Origin: Cyanobacteriota bacterium
GTDB taxonomy: Bacteria; Cyanobacteriota; Cyanobacteriia; Cyanobacteriales; Microcoleaceae
Assembly: GCA_025362325.1 (NCBI GenBank)
Contig: JANYGO010000290.1
Span: forward strand, 1 to 64,000
Direction of reading: 5' to 3'
Length of the DNA: 64,000 nt
The position numbers and the translations under genes were made by a program. The notes beneath the pieces are model-generated. The model was given only the letters and a program-made list of their open reading frames with translations, made no database searches and was not told the origin of the DNA. Below, piece by piece: positions 8,961 through 62,101 of this stretch. Within the stretch, counting starts at the first letter, position 1. Each line of letters starts with the position of its first letter.

Positions 8961-11153
8961 ATGAGTTTCACAGGCAACACTCCCATCGTTGATGGCATTC
9001 AGCTTGCTGACGCCAACCCCACTAAAGCAGATACTGTTAACTACACCGTCACTTTCAATCAAAGTGTTACCGGAGTAGATATCGCAGACTTTACCCTGAA
9101 ATCTACCGCAGTAACGGGTGCAAATATCGCAGCAGTTACAGGTAGCGGTGCTTCCTACAACGTCAGTGTAAACACTGGCAAAGAATCTGGCACTCTGGGA
9201 TTAAATCTCGTCGATAATGACTCGATTAACAATTCCGTACTTGTACCGTTAGGTGACATAGGTCAAGGCAACGGCAACTTTACCGGACTAACTTATACTA
9301 TTGATAAAACTCCGCCGGCTGTCAGCTTTGCTCCAGTTGCTCCAGATCCGCGCAACACGAGTGTTACCACAATTCCCATTACTTTCAGCGAACCTGTAAC
9401 TGGCTTTAACACAGCCGATCTAAGTCTCACTCGCAACGGCGTAGCTGTTCCTCTCACAGGTGCTACCCTAAACAGCACTAACAATACTAATTGGACTTTA
9501 GACAACTTGACGGGATTGACCGACGCTGACGGCAATTACCAACTCTCTCTGACTGCTGCTGGTTCTGGTATTGTCGATCGAGCCGGCAACGCTCTCAATA
9601 CAAATGCTAGCAATATCTGGAGTGCCGACTTCACTGCGCCCACCGCCGCCAGCAGCTTCAGCAACATCAATGCCGCAGGTGGAAATACTTACAACTTCAC
9701 TGTCACCTATACCGACAATACAGCCCTCAATGTCAGTACCTTAGACAGTAAGGATATTTTGGTCGCTGGGCCTGATGGCAAAACCCAACAGGCAACTCTG
9801 GTAAATTTCACGCCCCTAGGTAACGGCACTCCTCGCAGCGCCACCTACTCCTTCGTTCCCCCCGGCGGCACTTGGGATACCGCAGATAATGGTATTTACA
9901 CGGTACAGCTACAACCTCAGCAGGTTAGCGACACTGTTGGTAATTTTGATGTAGCTGGCAATTTGGGGACATTTACAGTCAATATTGCACCTGCTGCACC
10001 TGCACCTGCTGTCACCGCAGCGCCTGCACCTGCTGCACCTGCACCCGCTATCACCGCAGCGCCTGCACCCGTTGTCACTGTACCCGTTTTCACCGCACCC
10101 GTTGTCACTGCACCCGTTGTCACCGCAGCACCTGCACCTGCTGCACCTGCACCCGCTATCACCGCAGCGCCTGCACCTGCTGCACCTGCACCCGCTATCA
10201 CCGCAGCGCCTGCACCCGTTGTCACTGCACCCGTTTTCACCGCACCCGTTGTCACTGCACCCGTTGTCACCGCAGCACCTGCACCCGTTGTCACCGCAGC
10301 GCCTGCACCCGTTGTCACTGCACCCGTTTTCACCGCAGCACCAACGCCACCGACACTGATCGTGACAGCAGCGACACCGATTGTGACACCGATCGCCACC
10401 GCAGCACCAACGCCACCGACACCGATCGTGACAGCAGCGACACCGATTGTGACACCGATCGCCAAAGCAGCACCAACGCCACCAACACCGATTGTCACCG
10501 CAACGCCGACGCCTCAACCAATCGTCACACCGACACCCGCACCGACGCCGATCGACACAATGACACCGGCACTAACATCGATCGGCACATTGATCGACAG
10601 GCTGACATCGATCGCCAAGACTGCACCGACTGCAACAACTGCGACGGCGACACCGATGCGGACACTGATCGCGATGACAACGCGAACACCTGTGTTTACC
10701 GCACCACCAACGAGCGCGCGCACAGTCAGCGATTGTCCGCCTGCGTCCATGCCGATCAGGCGATCGACATCCACTCCAATGCCTGTGAACCGCGATCGCG
10801 AATATGACCCCCTAACTTGCCCTCAGAACAATCAAGTCAATTACCGCAGCAATACTCCAGCACAGATTGCCAAGCCGATCGCACTTTCAGCACCTAATTG
10901 CCCTTCTGTTGCCGGCGATCGCGATAATGATGACTTTTTAATCGGCAGCCCGAAAAATACCAATGACGGCAATCAAAAGAGCGATCGAGTTTCAACTATC
11001 GGGTTTTCTTTGTTGGGTGAATTCTGTGCTTCTGGAACTCCGCAACGATCCACACTAAATAATGTTCAGAGTTTTGGTCTGACAACTCAGTTGCAATTTA
11101 GCCATACAACATTAGTAAATACCGCATCTCAATGCCAAATTCGCTTGATTTAG
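8961..11153 (+). CDS. Large Ig-like/cadherin-like repeat protein with Ala/Pro/Thr/Val-rich low-complexity stretch
   Basis: VNYTVTFNQSVTGVDIADFTL...DKTPPAVSFAPV...; then PAPAVTAAPAPVVTAPVF repeats. Confidence 0.7.
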   Translation: MSFTGNTPIVDGIQLADANPTKADTVNYTVTFNQSVTGVDIADFTLKSTAVTGANIAAVTGSGASYNVSVNTGKESGTLGLNLVDNDSINNSVLVPLGDIGQGNGNFTGLTYTIDKTPPAVSFAPVAPDPRNTSVTTIPITFSEPVTGFNTADLSLTRNGVAVPLTGATLNSTNNTNWTLDNLTGLTDADGNYQLSLTAAGSGIVDRAGNALNTNASNIWSADFTAPTAASSFSNINAAGGNTYNFTVTYTDNTALNVSTLDSKDILVAGPDGKTQQATLVNFTPLGNGTPRSATYSFVPPGGTWDTADNGIYTVQLQPQQVSDTVGNFDVAGNLGTFTVNIAPAAPAPAVTAAPAPAAPAPAITAAPAPVVTVPVFTAPVVTAPVVTAAPAPAAPAPAITAAPAPAAPAPAITAAPAPVVTAPVFTAPVVTAPVVTAAPAPVVTAAPAPVVTAPVFTAAPTPPTLIVTAATPIVTPIATAAPTPPTPIVTAATPIVTPIAKAAPTPPTPIVTATPTPQPIVTPTPAPTPIDTMTPALTSIGTLIDRLTSIAKTAPTATTATATPMRTLIAMTTRTPVFTAPPTSARTVSDCPPASMPIRRSTSTPMPVNRDREYDPLTCPQNNQVNYRSNTPAQIAKPIALSAPNCPSVAGDRDNDDFLIGSPKNTNDGNQKSDRVSTIGFSLLGEFCASGTPQRSTLNNVQSFGLTTQLQFSHTTLVNTASQCQIRLI
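9991..10340. repeat. Tandem low-complexity coding repeat (GCACCTGCACCCG.TATCACCGCAGC family)
   Basis: Repeated APAPAITAAPAPVVTAPVFTAPVV blocks. Confidence 0.85.
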
Positions 11154-11723: not shown

Positions 11724-14700
11724 ATGAGATCAATGAATACGTTGACACTCCCAGGCTACAAAATCAGCACCTCCATCTCCGACGGCTTCAATACCAGCGT
11801 TTACCGGGGAATTAGAGAGTCAGACGAACAACCAGTCATCATCAAAATCCTCAAGGCAGAATTTCCCACCCTCGAACAAATTACCCGCTTAAAAAACGAA
11901 TATAAAATTACTCAGCATTTATACGTAGAAGGTGTCGTCAAATCCTACAGCCTCGAAACCTATCAAAACCGTCTCGCCCTGATTTTAGAAGACTTTGGCG
12001 GCAACTCCCTGGGTCAAATCATCTCCAAAAAGCTTGACTTAACAGCATTTTTAAACATTGGCATTCAGCTAGCATCAGCACTCAACTCGCTGCATCAAAA
12101 CGGCATCATCCACAAAGACATCAAACCCTCCAACATAATCATCAACCTGGAAACAGGAACAGTCAAACTCACTGACTTCAGCGTTGCTTCGCGGCTGAGC
12201 AAAGAAAACCCGCAAATTAACAGCACTAACTTAGTTGAAGGTACAGTCGCCTATATGTCTCCCGAACAAACCGGGAGAATGAACCGCATCTTAGATTATC
12301 GCAGCGATTTCTATTCCCTCGGCGTGACATTATACGAAATGCTGACAGGTGAATTGCCGTTTCACAGCAGCGATATTTTGGAACTCGTCCACTCTCACAT
12401 TGCCAAACATCCCGCACCGCCTTGTAATTGCAGAAGAAACTTAGAAAATAGCGATCCGGTTCCGCAAGTTGTTGCTGATATTGTGATGAAGCTATTGGCA
12501 AAAAATGCCGAAGATAGGTATCAAACTGCGGAGGGAATTCAAGCAGATTTAGAAAAGTGTTTGAATTGTTTACAAACAACTGGAGAAATTGCTTATTTTG
12601 TACCCGGAAAGTTGGATCGATCGCAACAACTGTCAATACCTCAAAAACTCTACGGGCGAGAAGCTGAAGTCGATCGCCTGTTGGCTGCTTTTGAACGAGT
12701 CAGCGGGATTGAAGAGGCGCAACCGCCAGAAACTGCGGAAAATCTACCGCCTCGTCCCCAAAGCGAAATTGTCCTAGTTTCCGGTTATTCTGGCATTGGC
12801 AAAACCGCGATTGTCAGCGAGGTACATAAGCCAATTGTCCGACAGCGCGGCTATTTTATCAACGGCAAATTTGACCAATTTAAGCGCAACATTCCCTATG
12901 CAGCTTTGATTCAAGCTTTCCACTCATTAATCGGGCAGTTGCTGACTGAAAGTACGGAAAAATTGCAAGCTTGGCGAGAAAAACTATCGGCTGCTTTGGG
13001 TGCAAACGGTGCAGTGATTGTTGATGTGATTCCTGAAATTGAGCTAATTATTGGCAAACAGCCGGAAGTGCCACAATTAGGGCCTGGCGAATCTCAAAAT
13101 CGGTTTAATCGAGTCTTCCAAGAATTTATCGGTGTCTTCACTCATCAATCACATCCGCTGGTGCTCTTTTTGGATGATTTGCAGTGGGCTGATTCCGCAT
13201 CGCTGAATTTAATGCAATTGTTGGTTGGCAATTCCGAAAGTCAATATTTGCTTTTGATTGGTGCTTATCGGGATAATGAAGTTAATCCGACTCATCCGCT
13301 GGTGCCGGCGATCGAGCAAATTGAAAAAACGGGCACTCCTGTTCATCATATCGTCTTGCAACCGCTGGATTTCGGCAACGTCTACGAATTAATCGCCGAC
13401 ACCCTCACCGCTAACGACAAGGTGAAATTGCTGGCTGAGTTAATCTTTCACAAAACGGGCGGCAATCCTTTCTTTATCACGCAGCTTTTGCAAGCACTTT
13501 ATCAAGAAAATCTGTTAAAATTTGAATTTAGCAGCGGTAGTTGGCAGTGGAATTTAGAGGAAATTCAGGCGATCGGCATTACTGACAAAAGTGTCGTGGA
13601 ATTGGTGGCCAGCCGCATCGAAAAACTGCCACAAACCACGCAACAAGTGTTAAAATTAGCCGCTTGTATTGGCGATACATTTAGCCTGGATGTCTTGTCA
13701 ATTGTCAACGAACAATCCCAGGCGCAAGCAGCTAGCGAACTCTGGGCGGCGCTGCAAACTGGATTGGTTCTCCCGCTGAGTAGTGCTTACAAGATTCCGC
13801 TGGTTGGAGGCTGGGGATTGGATAATTTGCGATCGATCCTTTCCGCTTCCCAATCTAAGATTTCCTACAAATTCCTGCACGACAGAGTGCAGCAAGCAGC
13901 TTATTCTCTGATTCCCGACGGCGAAAAGCAAGCAACGCACCTAAAAATCGGTCAACTGCTGCTCAACAATACTCCCGCTTCGGAGATTGAAGAAAATGTC
14001 TTTGATATTGTCAACCAACTGAATATTGGCGTTGAATTCCTCACAGGAAAAACCGCAAAAGATGAACTCGCAAAACTGAATCTGATCGCAGGGAAAAAAG
14101 CTAAAGCATCCAATGCTTACGAAGCTGCTGTCAGGTATTTGAATGTCGGTTTGGAACTCATCAATCCCCTTGGCGTGGTAAGTGTACCGGGGTCAAGTTG
14201 GCAGACTGATTATGACTTGACGCTGAACCTGCACGTAGAAGCAGCGGAGGCTGAGTATCTGAATACTAACTTTGGGCGATCGCAAGAATTAGCTGATGTC
14301 ATTTTGCAACAAGCTACAAACCTGCTAGATCAAGTTAAAGTCTACGAACTGCAAATGCAGTCTTATTTGTCTCAAAACCAGATGATTGAAGCAATAAATA
14401 CTGGTTTAAAAGCTTTGGAAATATTGGGATTTTCCCTATCAGAAATCCCCCCAGAAGGTTTGGCAGGAATTAAGTTACCTCAGCTTGAGGAACTAAAAAA
14501 CATTCCGGTAATAACTGATGCCTATCAGTTGGCCACAATGCGGATACTCTCGGCTGTTGTTTCTCCTGTTTTTGTGGCCAAACCAGAACTATTGCCGCAG
14601 ATCATCTTCACAATGGTTCATTTTTCTATTGAACGGGGTCATTCAGCACTTGGGGCGATCGCCTATAGTTGGCATGGCTTGCTGCTGACTGGAGCATTAG

Positions 14701-17255
14701 GAGAGATAGATGCTGGATATCATTCTGGACAGCTAGCTTTGAAGCTACTAGACCAATTCAATGCTAAAGAACTTAACTGCAAAGTTTCCCACCTGTTTAA
14801 CACTTTTATCCGGCACTGGAAAGAACACGCTAGAGAGACAATTGCACCCTTAATAGAGAGTATTCACAGCGGCCTCGAAACAGGAGATTTACAATTTAGT
14901 AGTTATTCTGCAATCAACAGTTGTTCTTATCCATTTTTGATGGGAGAACTGCTAGAAACTGTAGAAAAAAAACAAGTGCAATACTTCAATTTAGCGCAGA
15001 ATCTAAAACAAGAGCTTGCGATCGAGTCGCTGGTAATCTGGGGAAAAATTGTTTTAAAATTGCGAGGTGTATCCGCGAATCAATCTGAATTAAGAAGTAA
15101 TAAATTTAATGAACAAGAAATGTTGCTTCGGCTGCAAAAAACTAACAATTATATGTTAATTTTTAATGTTTATTTTTCTAGAATGCTCCTTAGTTACTTG
15201 TTTAAAAAATCAGAAAAAGCAGTTACAAACGCATCATTAGCGGCCGAATATGCACCAGCAGCAATTGGCTTCATGATGATCGGTACGCACAATTTTTACT
15301 ATTCGCTGGCCATCCTCGCTGTGTATCCAACTGCTGACAGTGGAGAACAAGAAAAACACTTGATGCAAGTAGCAGCGAATCAGGAAAAAATGCAGCACTG
15401 GGCGCACCACGCCCCCATGAACTATCAGCACAAGTACGACCTCGTAGAAGCCGAAAAAGCGCGGGTTTTCGGTAAAGATTGGGAAGCAGCAGATTATTAT
15501 GACAAAGCCATTCAAGGAGCAAAAGAGCAGGGATACATCCAAGAAGCAGCACTCGCCAACGAACTTGCAGCAGAGTTTTATTTGTCTCGCAACAAAGACA
15601 AAATCGCTAAAGTCTATCTCACAGAATCTTACTATGGTTACATCCACTGGGGAGCGATCGCGAAAGTCAAAGATTTAGAAGCCAGATATCCCCAATTAGT
15701 CGCCCAAACCCTCAACCGAGAAACAAAAAGCCGCAATTTAACTGTCACCACCACGACAACAACCACCAGCAGCGATTTTAGCAAGACTTTAGATATCGGC
15801 ACATTCATCAAAGCATCTCAAGCTATTACCAGCGAAATTGTCTTGGATAAATTGCTCGCCCGTTTAATCAAAATTTTATTAGAAAATGCCGCCGCTCAAA
15901 AAGCAGTGCTGATGCTCTACAAAGATGGCAATCTTTTGATACAAGCAGCTTGCACGGCAGAGCAAAATCACGCCGCCGTCTTGCAGGCCCTTCCCGTTGA
16001 AATTAGTCAAGATTTGCCCGTCTCGATTATTAACTATGTTGCCAGAACTCAAAAAGACTTGGTTTTAAACAATGCAGCCTCAGACGGCTTGTTTACCGAA
16101 GATCCGTATATTTTCAGCCGTAAACCCAAGTCAATTATTTGCAATCCCGTCATCTATCAGGGCAAACTCACAGGCATTCTTTACCTGGAAAACAACTTAG
16201 CTGCGGGTGCATTTACTCCAGAAAGATTGGAAGTTTTAAAGTTGCTCACTTGTCAAGTCGCTATCGCCCTAGAAAATGCTCAACTCTACGCGAAAGAACA
16301 AGAAAAGTCGCAGCAACTCGCACAATCTTTGCACAAATTGCAGCAAACCCAAGCTCAACTCGTGCAAACGGAAAAAATCTCTAGTTTGGGGCAGTTGGTA
16401 GCAGGTGTTGCTCACGAAGTCAATAACCCTGTTGGGTTTATTTCCGGCAATCTCCACCACGCTAGCGATTACGTACGAGACTTGATTTGCATTGTCAATC
16501 TTTACCAGCAGCACTATCCGAATCCTGTGTCGCCAATTGTAGAAGCAGCCGAAGATATTGAACTCGATTATCTGATGGAAGATTTGCCGAAAATGCTGGG
16601 TTCTATGCAGCTAGGAACCGATCGCATTCGTGATATCATGCAATCATTGCGGAACTTCTCGCGCATTGACGGGAACCAGAAAAAACCGGCTGACATTCAC
16701 GCAGGTATCGAGAGCACGTTGATGATTTTGCAGCACCGCTTGAAAGCTAAAGCCGAACGTCCCGCCATTCAAGTGATTAAAGAATACGGCGATTTGCCTG
16801 CGGTTGAGTGTTACAGCGGACAACTCAATCAGGTGTTTATGAATTTGCTCGGAAATGCGATCGATGCTTTGGATGAATCAAATGGCGATCGCACTTACGC
16901 TGAAATTGACCGACATCCGAATACTATCACAATTTGCACCGAAGTCAGTTCGACAGCGGATTTTGTAGCGGATGTAGCGGATGTAGCGGATGGTAGGAAG
17001 AAGGGAGAGGGAAGAGTGGGGAAAATCGATAGTTTTGCTGTGATTCGGATTAAGGATAATGGGCCGGGGATGGCTGAAGTAACGCGGTGTAAACTGTTTG
17101 ACCCGTTTTTTACCACTAAACCAGAGGGTAAAGGTACGGGATTGGGATTGTCGATTAGCTATCAAATTGTAGTCGAAAAACACGGTGGTGCGATTCAATG
17201 TATTTCGGAACCGGGAAAAGGTGCAGAATTTGCGATCGCAATTCCGTTGAATTAG
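11724..17255 (+). CDS. Hybrid Ser/Thr kinase - AAA ATPase - GAF - sensor histidine kinase
   Basis: HKDIKPSNIIINLETGTVKLTDFSVA (STK); SGYSGIGKTAIV (P-loop); GAF; GVAHEVNNPVGFISGNL (H box); GNAIDALDE, DNGPGM, GKGTGLGLSISY (HATPase). Confidence 0.95.
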   Translation: MRSMNTLTLPGYKISTSISDGFNTSVYRGIRESDEQPVIIKILKAEFPTLEQITRLKNEYKITQHLYVEGVVKSYSLETYQNRLALILEDFGGNSLGQIISKKLDLTAFLNIGIQLASALNSLHQNGIIHKDIKPSNIIINLETGTVKLTDFSVASRLSKENPQINSTNLVEGTVAYMSPEQTGRMNRILDYRSDFYSLGVTLYEMLTGELPFHSSDILELVHSHIAKHPAPPCNCRRNLENSDPVPQVVADIVMKLLAKNAEDRYQTAEGIQADLEKCLNCLQTTGEIAYFVPGKLDRSQQLSIPQKLYGREAEVDRLLAAFERVSGIEEAQPPETAENLPPRPQSEIVLVSGYSGIGKTAIVSEVHKPIVRQRGYFINGKFDQFKRNIPYAALIQAFHSLIGQLLTESTEKLQAWREKLSAALGANGAVIVDVIPEIELIIGKQPEVPQLGPGESQNRFNRVFQEFIGVFTHQSHPLVLFLDDLQWADSASLNLMQLLVGNSESQYLLLIGAYRDNEVNPTHPLVPAIEQIEKTGTPVHHIVLQPLDFGNVYELIADTLTANDKVKLLAELIFHKTGGNPFFITQLLQALYQENLLKFEFSSGSWQWNLEEIQAIGITDKSVVELVASRIEKLPQTTQQVLKLAACIGDTFSLDVLSIVNEQSQAQAASELWAALQTGLVLPLSSAYKIPLVGGWGLDNLRSILSASQSKISYKFLHDRVQQAAYSLIPDGEKQATHLKIGQLLLNNTPASEIEENVFDIVNQLNIGVEFLTGKTAKDELAKLNLIAGKKAKASNAYEAAVRYLNVGLELINPLGVVSVPGSSWQTDYDLTLNLHVEAAEAEYLNTNFGRSQELADVILQQATNLLDQVKVYELQMQSYLSQNQMIEAINTGLKALEILGFSLSEIPPEGLAGIKLPQLEELKNIPVITDAYQLATMRILSAVVSPVFVAKPELLPQIIFTMVHFSIERGHSALGAIAYSWHGLLLTGALGEIDAGYHSGQLALKLLDQFNAKELNCKVSHLFNTFIRHWKEHARETIAPLIESIHSGLETGDLQFSSYSAINSCSYPFLMGELLETVEKKQVQYFNLAQNLKQELAIESLVIWGKIVLKLRGVSANQSELRSNKFNEQEMLLRLQKTNNYMLIFNVYFSRMLLSYLFKKSEKAVTNASLAAEYAPAAIGFMMIGTHNFYYSLAILAVYPTADSGEQEKHLMQVAANQEKMQHWAHHAPMNYQHKYDLVEAEKARVFGKDWEAADYYDKAIQGAKEQGYIQEAALANELAAEFYLSRNKDKIAKVYLTESYYGYIHWGAIAKVKDLEARYPQLVAQTLNRETKSRNLTVTTTTTTTSSDFSKTLDIGTFIKASQAITSEIVLDKLLARLIKILLENAAAQKAVLMLYKDGNLLIQAACTAEQNHAAVLQALPVEISQDLPVSIINYVARTQKDLVLNNAASDGLFTEDPYIFSRKPKSIICNPVIYQGKLTGILYLENNLAAGAFTPERLEVLKLLTCQVAIALENAQLYAKEQEKSQQLAQSLHKLQQTQAQLVQTEKISSLGQLVAGVAHEVNNPVGFISGNLHHASDYVRDLICIVNLYQQHYPNPVSPIVEAAEDIELDYLMEDLPKMLGSMQLGTDRIRDIMQSLRNFSRIDGNQKKPADIHAGIESTLMILQHRLKAKAERPAIQVIKEYGDLPAVECYSGQLNQVFMNLLGNAIDALDESNGDRTYAEIDRHPNTITICTEVSSTADFVADVADVADGRKKGEGRVGKIDSFAVIRIKDNGPGMAEVTRCKLFDPFFTTKPEGKGTGLGLSISYQIVVEKHGGAIQCISEPGKGAEFAIAIPLN
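16946..17001. repeat. Dispersed repeat copy A (CAGTTCGACAGCGGATTTTGTAGCGGATGTAGCGGATGTAGCGGATG)
   Basis: Aligns with 32742-32794 and 61796-61850; lies within the kinase CDS. Confidence 0.75.
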
Positions 17256-17275
17256 AGAAGGATTAGAGAAGAAAA

Positions 17276-17413
17276 CCCGGCGAATAAAATTCGCGTCTAT
17301 ACAGACAAAACCCGCCTGCGCGGGTTGAAAACGGGGAAATTAAAATTACGTTCTTCTCTTCAACCGGCGTCGGCAGGTTTTGTTCGTATAGGCGCGAATT
17401 CTATTCGCCCGGT
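17276..17413. mobile_element. MITE-like element with ~46-bp imperfect terminal inverted repeats
   Basis: CCCGGCGAATAAAATTCGCGTCTATACAGACAAAACCCGCC versus reverse complement of GGCAGGTTTTGTTCGTATAGGCGCGAATTCTATTCGCCCGG. Confidence 0.7.
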
Positions 17414-17430
17414 ATTCTGCATCTACAAAC

Positions 17431-32741: not shown

Positions 32742-32794
32742 AAGTTCGGCAACGGATTTTGTAACTGATGTAACGGATGTAATGGATTTCAGGA
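32742..32794. repeat. Dispersed repeat copy B
   Basis: AAGTTCGGCAACGGATTTTGTAACTGATGTAACGGATGTAATGGATTTCAGG. Confidence 0.75.
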
Positions 32795-49541: not shown

Positions 49542-49552
49542 TTAGTTCAAAA

Positions 49553-49680
49553 AGACTCGGCGGTTGAAACCGCAACTACACAAACGAAGTCGGCGGAGGC
49601 CGACTGAAGAATAATAAGACTCGGCGGTTGAAACCGCAACTACACAAACGAAGTCGGCGGAGGCCGACTGAAGAATAAAA
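49553..49680. repeat. Perfect or near-perfect tandem duplication, 64-bp unit x2
   Basis: AGACTCGGCGGTTGAAACCGCAACTACACAAACGAAGTCGGCGGAGGCCGACTGAAGAATAA repeated. Confidence 0.95.
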
Positions 49681-61795: not shown

Positions 61796-61850
61796 AAGTT
61801 CGACAACGGATGTTGTAACGGATGTAACGCATTGAACGGATTGAAGGAAG
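61796..61850. repeat. Dispersed repeat copy C
   Basis: AAGTTCGACAACGGATGTTGTAACGGATGTAACGCATTGAACGGATTGAAGGAAG. Confidence 0.75.
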
Positions 61851-62029: not shown

Positions 62030-62101
62030 AAAAAGGAACCGCCCGAACAGTAGTCCGGGCGGAGTGTGGTGTGAGGAGTGAACGGAAACTTGTGTCTCCG
62101 C
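62030..62101 (-). ncRNA. yfr1: Yfr1 small regulatory RNA
   Basis: Reverse strand GCGGAGACACAAGTTTCCGTTCACTCCTCACACCACACTCCGCCCGGACTACTGTTCGGGCGGTTCCTTTTT: 5' hairpin, ACTCCTCACAC motif, 10-bp terminator stem plus U-run; guaB-yfr1-trxA context. Confidence 0.93.

Follow-up and report, generated by a model that had tools for sequence, protein, structure and literature searches.

How can one short sequence stand between genes and also, without breaking the reading frame, inside the ATPase domain of a histidine kinase? The question is raised by the window, i.e., the whole 64,000-nucleotide stretch of cyanobacterial DNA analysed here, which belongs to a 6.37-Mb draft genome of 396 contigs. The initial annotation had placed a dispersed repeat in a kinase coding sequence and at two intergenic places. 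All three occurrences were recovered, and their exact limits were set at 16947-16991, 32743-32787 and 61797-61841, each on the forward strand. By searching with a 21-base core and up to three mismatches, five matches were found in the window, all at these three places, and none were found in 100 shuffles.

Window copies and the architecture of the repeat

The kinase-gene copy (AGTTCGACAGCGGATTTTGTAGCGGATGTAGCGGATGTAGCGGAT) is read in frame as SSTADFVADVADVAD, corresponding to residues 1742-1756 of a forward-strand open reading frame (11724..17255) that encodes 1843 residues with a Ser/Thr kinase - AAA - GAF - histidine kinase organization. It is adjoined by a purine-rich tract (16992 to ~17025, forward strand) coding for GRKKGEGRVGKI. 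The first intergenic copy is preceded by GAAGAAGGA and lies just 3' of a terminator-like hairpin and T-run, and the second is partly decayed. About 200 bases from the latter, at 62037-62101 on the reverse strand, is the Yfr1 small RNA gene (RF01116), which was the only match to Rfam and is unrelated to the repeat.

The element follows the formula GAAGGAAGTTCGGCARCGGATTNTGTARCGGATKTARCGGAT(GTARCGGAT)n. The anatomy set contained 90 copies from the source genome and 186 others, and the profile of the 268 copies with enough flank reads GAAGGAAG-TTCGGCARCGGAT-TNT-GTARCGGAT-KTARCGGAT, usually continued by 0-3 more 9-base units. Alternatively, it can be parsed as a series of GYARCGGAT 9-mers, the first of which is separated from the next by the 3-base spacer TNT. 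The total length is about 36-70 bp, composed of direct units and including a constant head of 27-30 bases that contains the non-periodic TNT spacer. The consensus of about 50 bp described initially thus reflects a genuinely shared sequence but not a fixed 50-mer, as the number of 9-base units that come after the fixed head differs between copies. The 3' end is ragged, with 0-6 further units and many different following sequences. The building units (12, 12 and 9 bases) are all multiples of three, so that the frame is kept when units are gained or lost. A second, related form of the repeat also exists (GGCAACGAGCAATGTACGGGATTTAACGGAT).

Most positions of the core are 96-100% constant. The middle base of TNT (position 17 of the 36-base core) is nearly free, with counts of T136, C62, A41 and G37, and all four bases were seen there in otherwise perfect copies from complete congener genomes. 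At three purine positions and one G/T position, variation is nearly independent; variable positions are linked weakly, and a division into discrete subfamilies was rejected. In coding copies N is the second codon position, and protein selection therefore does not explain which core bases stay constant. Simple copying also leaves a free base within a conserved core unexplained, which hints that some factor recognises the element.

The surroundings of the repeat are polarized. Of 241 copies, 107 have a purine anchor, GAAGGAA, in the 18 bases preceding them, compared with 0 of 241 at a control distance and 0 on the opposite strand, and its reverse occurred downstream in 1 of 241, no more than background. 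The polarity of the repeat relative to the purine tract is fixed. No terminal inverted repeats were visible in the consensus of 276 copies. In addition, neither the consensus (z -0.9) nor the three window copies folded into hairpins better than shuffles, and an identity as an RNA or DNA hairpin was rejected on this ground.

Other repetitive DNA was also observed in the window. Directly 3' of the kinase gene (17260-17415), similar sequences in opposite orientation (GGCGAATAAAATTCGCGTCTATACAGACAAAACC ... GGTTTTGTTCGTATAGGCGCGAATTCTATTCGCC) resemble a large imperfect palindromic repeat; an inverted-repeat search of 17250-17430 at default settings reported none. A 64-base unit is perfectly duplicated in tandem at 49552-49678, and positions 9986-10593 hold long, highly repetitive 15- to 147-base tandem arrays with units of the CACC/GCACCTG type.

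Distribution among genomes, genes and reading frames

Further copies are abundant beyond the window. With a 19-base core and up to two mismatches, 95 matches were found in the whole genome, against one for the reversed control. Among 60 relatives searched at up to one mismatch, the repeat was present in all 29 same-genus genomes (2 to 134 matches), in one of seven other genera of the family and, within 23 further families of the order, in three genomes with 1 to 3 matches each. In named records, almost all loci belong to Microcoleus, Tychonema, Lyngbya CCAP 1446/10 and Oscillatoriales/Microcoleaceae assemblies, which places the host in Microcoleus in the broad sense; the complete Microcoleus vaginatus HSN003 genome is one of the carriers. 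Since most of the genomes compared are draft or metagenome assemblies, some of the tandem unit numbers may be wrong. No match was found in viral contigs or phage records, and the sole plasmid match, to a short related array, came from Calothrix. No replication-strand bias was detected by a best-two-arc test in two single-contig genomes. Altogether, the repeat constitutes a family of very small dispersed elements that is specific to one genus, being nearly confined to Microcoleus in the broad sense. No paper describing it was found in a literature search that reached few subscription papers.

Within the source genome, 21 of 90 copies, in at least 13 genes, lie in same-strand open reading frames of at least 120 residues, and a single copy lies on the opposite strand. 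No orientation bias was seen for intergenic copies flanked by co-directional genes, 24 running with the genes and 18 against. Hosts with Pfam support include DNA polymerase I (PolA), a PHO4 phosphate transporter, CobB, ComEC, a two-domain glycosyltransferase, PlsY-PPDK and PMT, together with EAL, TPR, GH116, glutamate synthase central domain (GltS), ABC and UvrC proteins, as well as Lnt and an ABC exporter. The Pfam domains usually span or flank the insert on both sides.

One open frame, giving the peptide KEEG-SSATDFVTDVTD, is used in 19 of 21 Pfam-supported families; the 19 are an approximate count because in L205, L244, L247 and L124 the Pfam support lies downstream of the insert only. The other open sense frame is used in one family, a pyridine nucleotide-disulphide oxidoreductase (L058), and the antisense strand in one, an NRPS adenylation domain (L031) from a different genus. 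The third sense frame always contains a stop, as do two antisense frames in some variants. This bias has a p of ~4e-11 if five frames are equally likely, and of ~4e-5 against the second open sense frame alone. Many conserved, unrelated genes thus contain the repeat in frame, and its strong strand and frame bias inside genes has no counterpart between them. Judged from its translation, the product of the preferred frame is a small polar, acidic segment, which would add a mild acidic loop to proteins. The initial proposal that a dispersed repeat entered a gene in frame is supported by these results, and its extent was understated.

Orthologous sites and the kinase loop

Comparison of six kinase orthologs (80-88% identity) revealed a site with a varied history. 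Two tandem repeat copies are present in G001, short copies in G018 and G004 (the latter preceded by a long purine tract) and a decayed copy in G008, and only a purine tract (KEEG..) without the repeat occurs in G009 and G017. One copy is found in a named assembly (L114), and in more distant paralogs the connector is of the usual short kind. The repeat-encoded residues are thus absent from orthologs and paralogs that lack the repeat. The insertion of some 25-30 residues into the kinase, ascribed initially to the repeat, was confirmed in size, with about 28 extra residues, but has two sources, approximately 15 residues coming from the repeat and 12 from the purine tract. Similarly, the insert is repeat-derived, but the site has been long used, with 0, 1 or 2 copies depending on the species, rather than marking a single recent entry.

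Within the kinase, Pfam assigns HATPase_c to residues 1700-1842. In an AlphaFold2 model of residues 1546-1843, the insert falls between strands 189-197 and 226-233 of the modelled stretch, where pLDDT is below 50 at 203-220, and the remaining ATPase domain is well predicted. Both the repeat and the purine tract are therein placed in a predicted low-confidence hairpin loop, and the ATP-binding motifs NAIDAL, DNGPGM and GTGLGL lie outside the insert. The repeat would accordingly be expected to lengthen a hairpin loop of the ATPase domain and to leave the ATP-binding motifs intact. A second in-frame insert, RDSLRDSCAA (GCGATTCCCTACGGGATAGCTGCGCC), precedes the repeat by ~40 residues in the G004 and G001 kinases (L064, L066) and is absent from the window's kinase; it is probably another dispersed repeat.

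Comparable differences were found in other genes. Of 26 species compared for UvrC, the repeat is present in 11, a purine tract alone in 14 and neither in one; because the purine motif is found in species without the repeat, it is independent of the repeat there. Filled and empty UvrC sites differ by 33 bases net, and sites with a second copy are 54 bases longer still, each difference being divisible by three; target duplication at this site is ambiguous, as both flanks are purine-rich. The repeat is present in PolA in 7 of 25 species and in a CruA-like gene in 9 of 28, the remainder of the latter having a purine tract. Orthologous sites thus differ in presence and copy number, with linkers containing none, 1-3 copies, only a purine tract or other repeats. 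In the PolA linker of L351, L352, L355, L370-L373 and also L165, the unrelated repeats SGTGILPV, GGQDAHPTI and TPPYPPQGG were observed, which implies that several repeat families use the same protein linkers.

The intergenic copies of the window are also restricted in distribution. The copy at 32743, downstream of a psbC-like gene, occurs only in G000 and G006 among the 16 genomes having the site, and that at 61797 is shared only with the close relative G006, other congeners having purine or heptamer repeats at this site. Where the two sites lack the repeat, unrelated or simple repeat sequence is found instead. For a copy on the genome's own contig C236, a clean empty site was available, where the repeat is inserted directly after AATGCAAG, with no target duplication visible at this one site. 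The purine anchor is absent there and is consequently not strictly required. A DNA uptake sequence was rejected as an identity of the repeat, since orthologous sites differ in inserted length rather than by point changes.

Origin of the repeat and comparison with known systems

The reading we favour, with a probability of about 0.7, is that a small repeat family multiplies in Microcoleus and is tolerated inside genes where it falls in a linker or surface loop in a harmless frame. Selection would remove intragenic copies that bring stops or unsuitable peptides, sparing the (KEEG)SSATDFVTDVTD reading. Less certainly, the repeat may spread without a transposase of its own, by copying or recombination that often starts from purine anchors (AAG, GAAGGAAG), and local tandem growth could follow through slippage or unequal exchange; no spreading event or enzyme was seen, and this mode of spread is one that we infer. 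The frame may also be set without selection, because AAG GAA GAA GGA codes for KEEG in register with the anchor. Selection and anchoring are inseparable in the present data as sources of the frame bias, which could partly come from the anchor.

Several alternatives were weighed against this interpretation. A non-autonomous transposon (MITE), moved by a transposase in trans into purine-rich targets, would fit the dispersed copies, the empty and filled orthologous sites and the fixed polarity relative to the purine tract, and the conserved core with one free base suggests recognition by a protein. It is nevertheless unlikely, given a consensus that lacks terminal inverted repeats and folds at shuffle level, a ragged 3' end and the clean site with no evident target duplication, one site being too few to exclude a MITE. 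Slippage acting separately at each place, favoured in flexible linkers, could produce a local minisatellite of 9-base units, and the 3' part is indeed such an array, its copy number differs between orthologs and the purine tracts at the same places resemble slippage products. However, one 27-30 base head is shared by ~95 unrelated loci of a single genome and is found in every congener searched, and since independent slippage cannot repeatedly make the same head, this origin is highly improbable.

A cellular function placed by selection, for example as the target of a protein that binds DNA or RNA, or as a useful flexible, acidic protein tag, would be in keeping with a free base that resembles part of a binding motif and with an encoded peptide that is nearly always the same. 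This explanation is improbable, however: the occupied genes vary by species and their orthologs work without the repeat, intergenic copies have no orientation preference relative to genes or chromosome halves, genomes of the genus carry between 2 and 134 copies, and the position of the free base in the codon means that coding does not explain the conservation pattern. A more speculative and rather doubtful extension of the favoured reading, that of a multiplying and tolerated family, is that a trans-acting factor recognises GGCARCGGATTNTGTARCGGAT while ignoring N, and that the frame-neutral build of 12, 12 and 9 bases was selected for life inside genes. If true, a DNA parasite has evolved compatibility with proteins.

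Proteins throughout the genus, among them products of DNA-repair and metabolic genes, are being reshaped by an apparently selfish repeat. The genus offers about 30 genomes for comparison, numerous natural pairs with and without the insert for each gene, and a clear frame preference; the filtering of selfish protein inserts thereby becomes testable, as does the functional effect of inserts in PolA, UvrC and glutamate synthase. Furthermore, lineage-specific inserts will be encountered when Microcoleus proteins are compared automatically, and these are repeats, not functional domains.

Heptamer STRRs are tandem short units in the intergenic DNA of filamentous cyanobacteria. The Microcoleus repeat likewise contains tandem short units, and heptamers fill the same sites in its relatives, but it differs in its 9-base units, its constant non-periodic head, its dispersal and its frequency inside genes. 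With a 7-base unit, heptamers would keep the frame only in multiples of three units. Small dispersed repeats (SDR) of cyanobacteria (Elhai et al., 2008, as cited in PMC4390886 and PMC3116915) are similar in being very small, numerous, non-coding on their own and apparently inserted in a short sequence context. Precise insertion inside HIP1, GCGATCGC, is reported for SDR5 (PMC4390886); compared with this description of SDR5, the left junctions of the Microcoleus repeat are AAG or GAAGGAAG rather than GCG/ATCGC. REP/REPIN elements, described in PMC3116915 as palindromic, mainly extragenic small dispersed repeats linked to RAYT transposases, share the character of a small non-autonomous dispersed bacterial repeat, whereas the Microcoleus element is non-palindromic and often intragenic. 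Rickettsia palindromic elements (RPE; Ogata et al., 2000, 2002) are palindromes of ~150 bp found in frame in unrelated genes, according to PMC10969869. Like them, the Microcoleus repeat is dispersed in frame in unrelated conserved genes, as well as between genes, and its inserts seem compatible with protein folding; unlike them, it is 36-70 bp long and non-palindromic, with direct units of variable number, and belongs to free-living cyanobacteria. The lesson of the RPE, that coding genes can survive the entry of selfish DNA, is thereby extended to a free-living and well-sampled cyanobacterial genus. Among the very small mobile repeats of cyanobacteria, the element is ordinary in kind and unusual in its extent and frame-neutral build.
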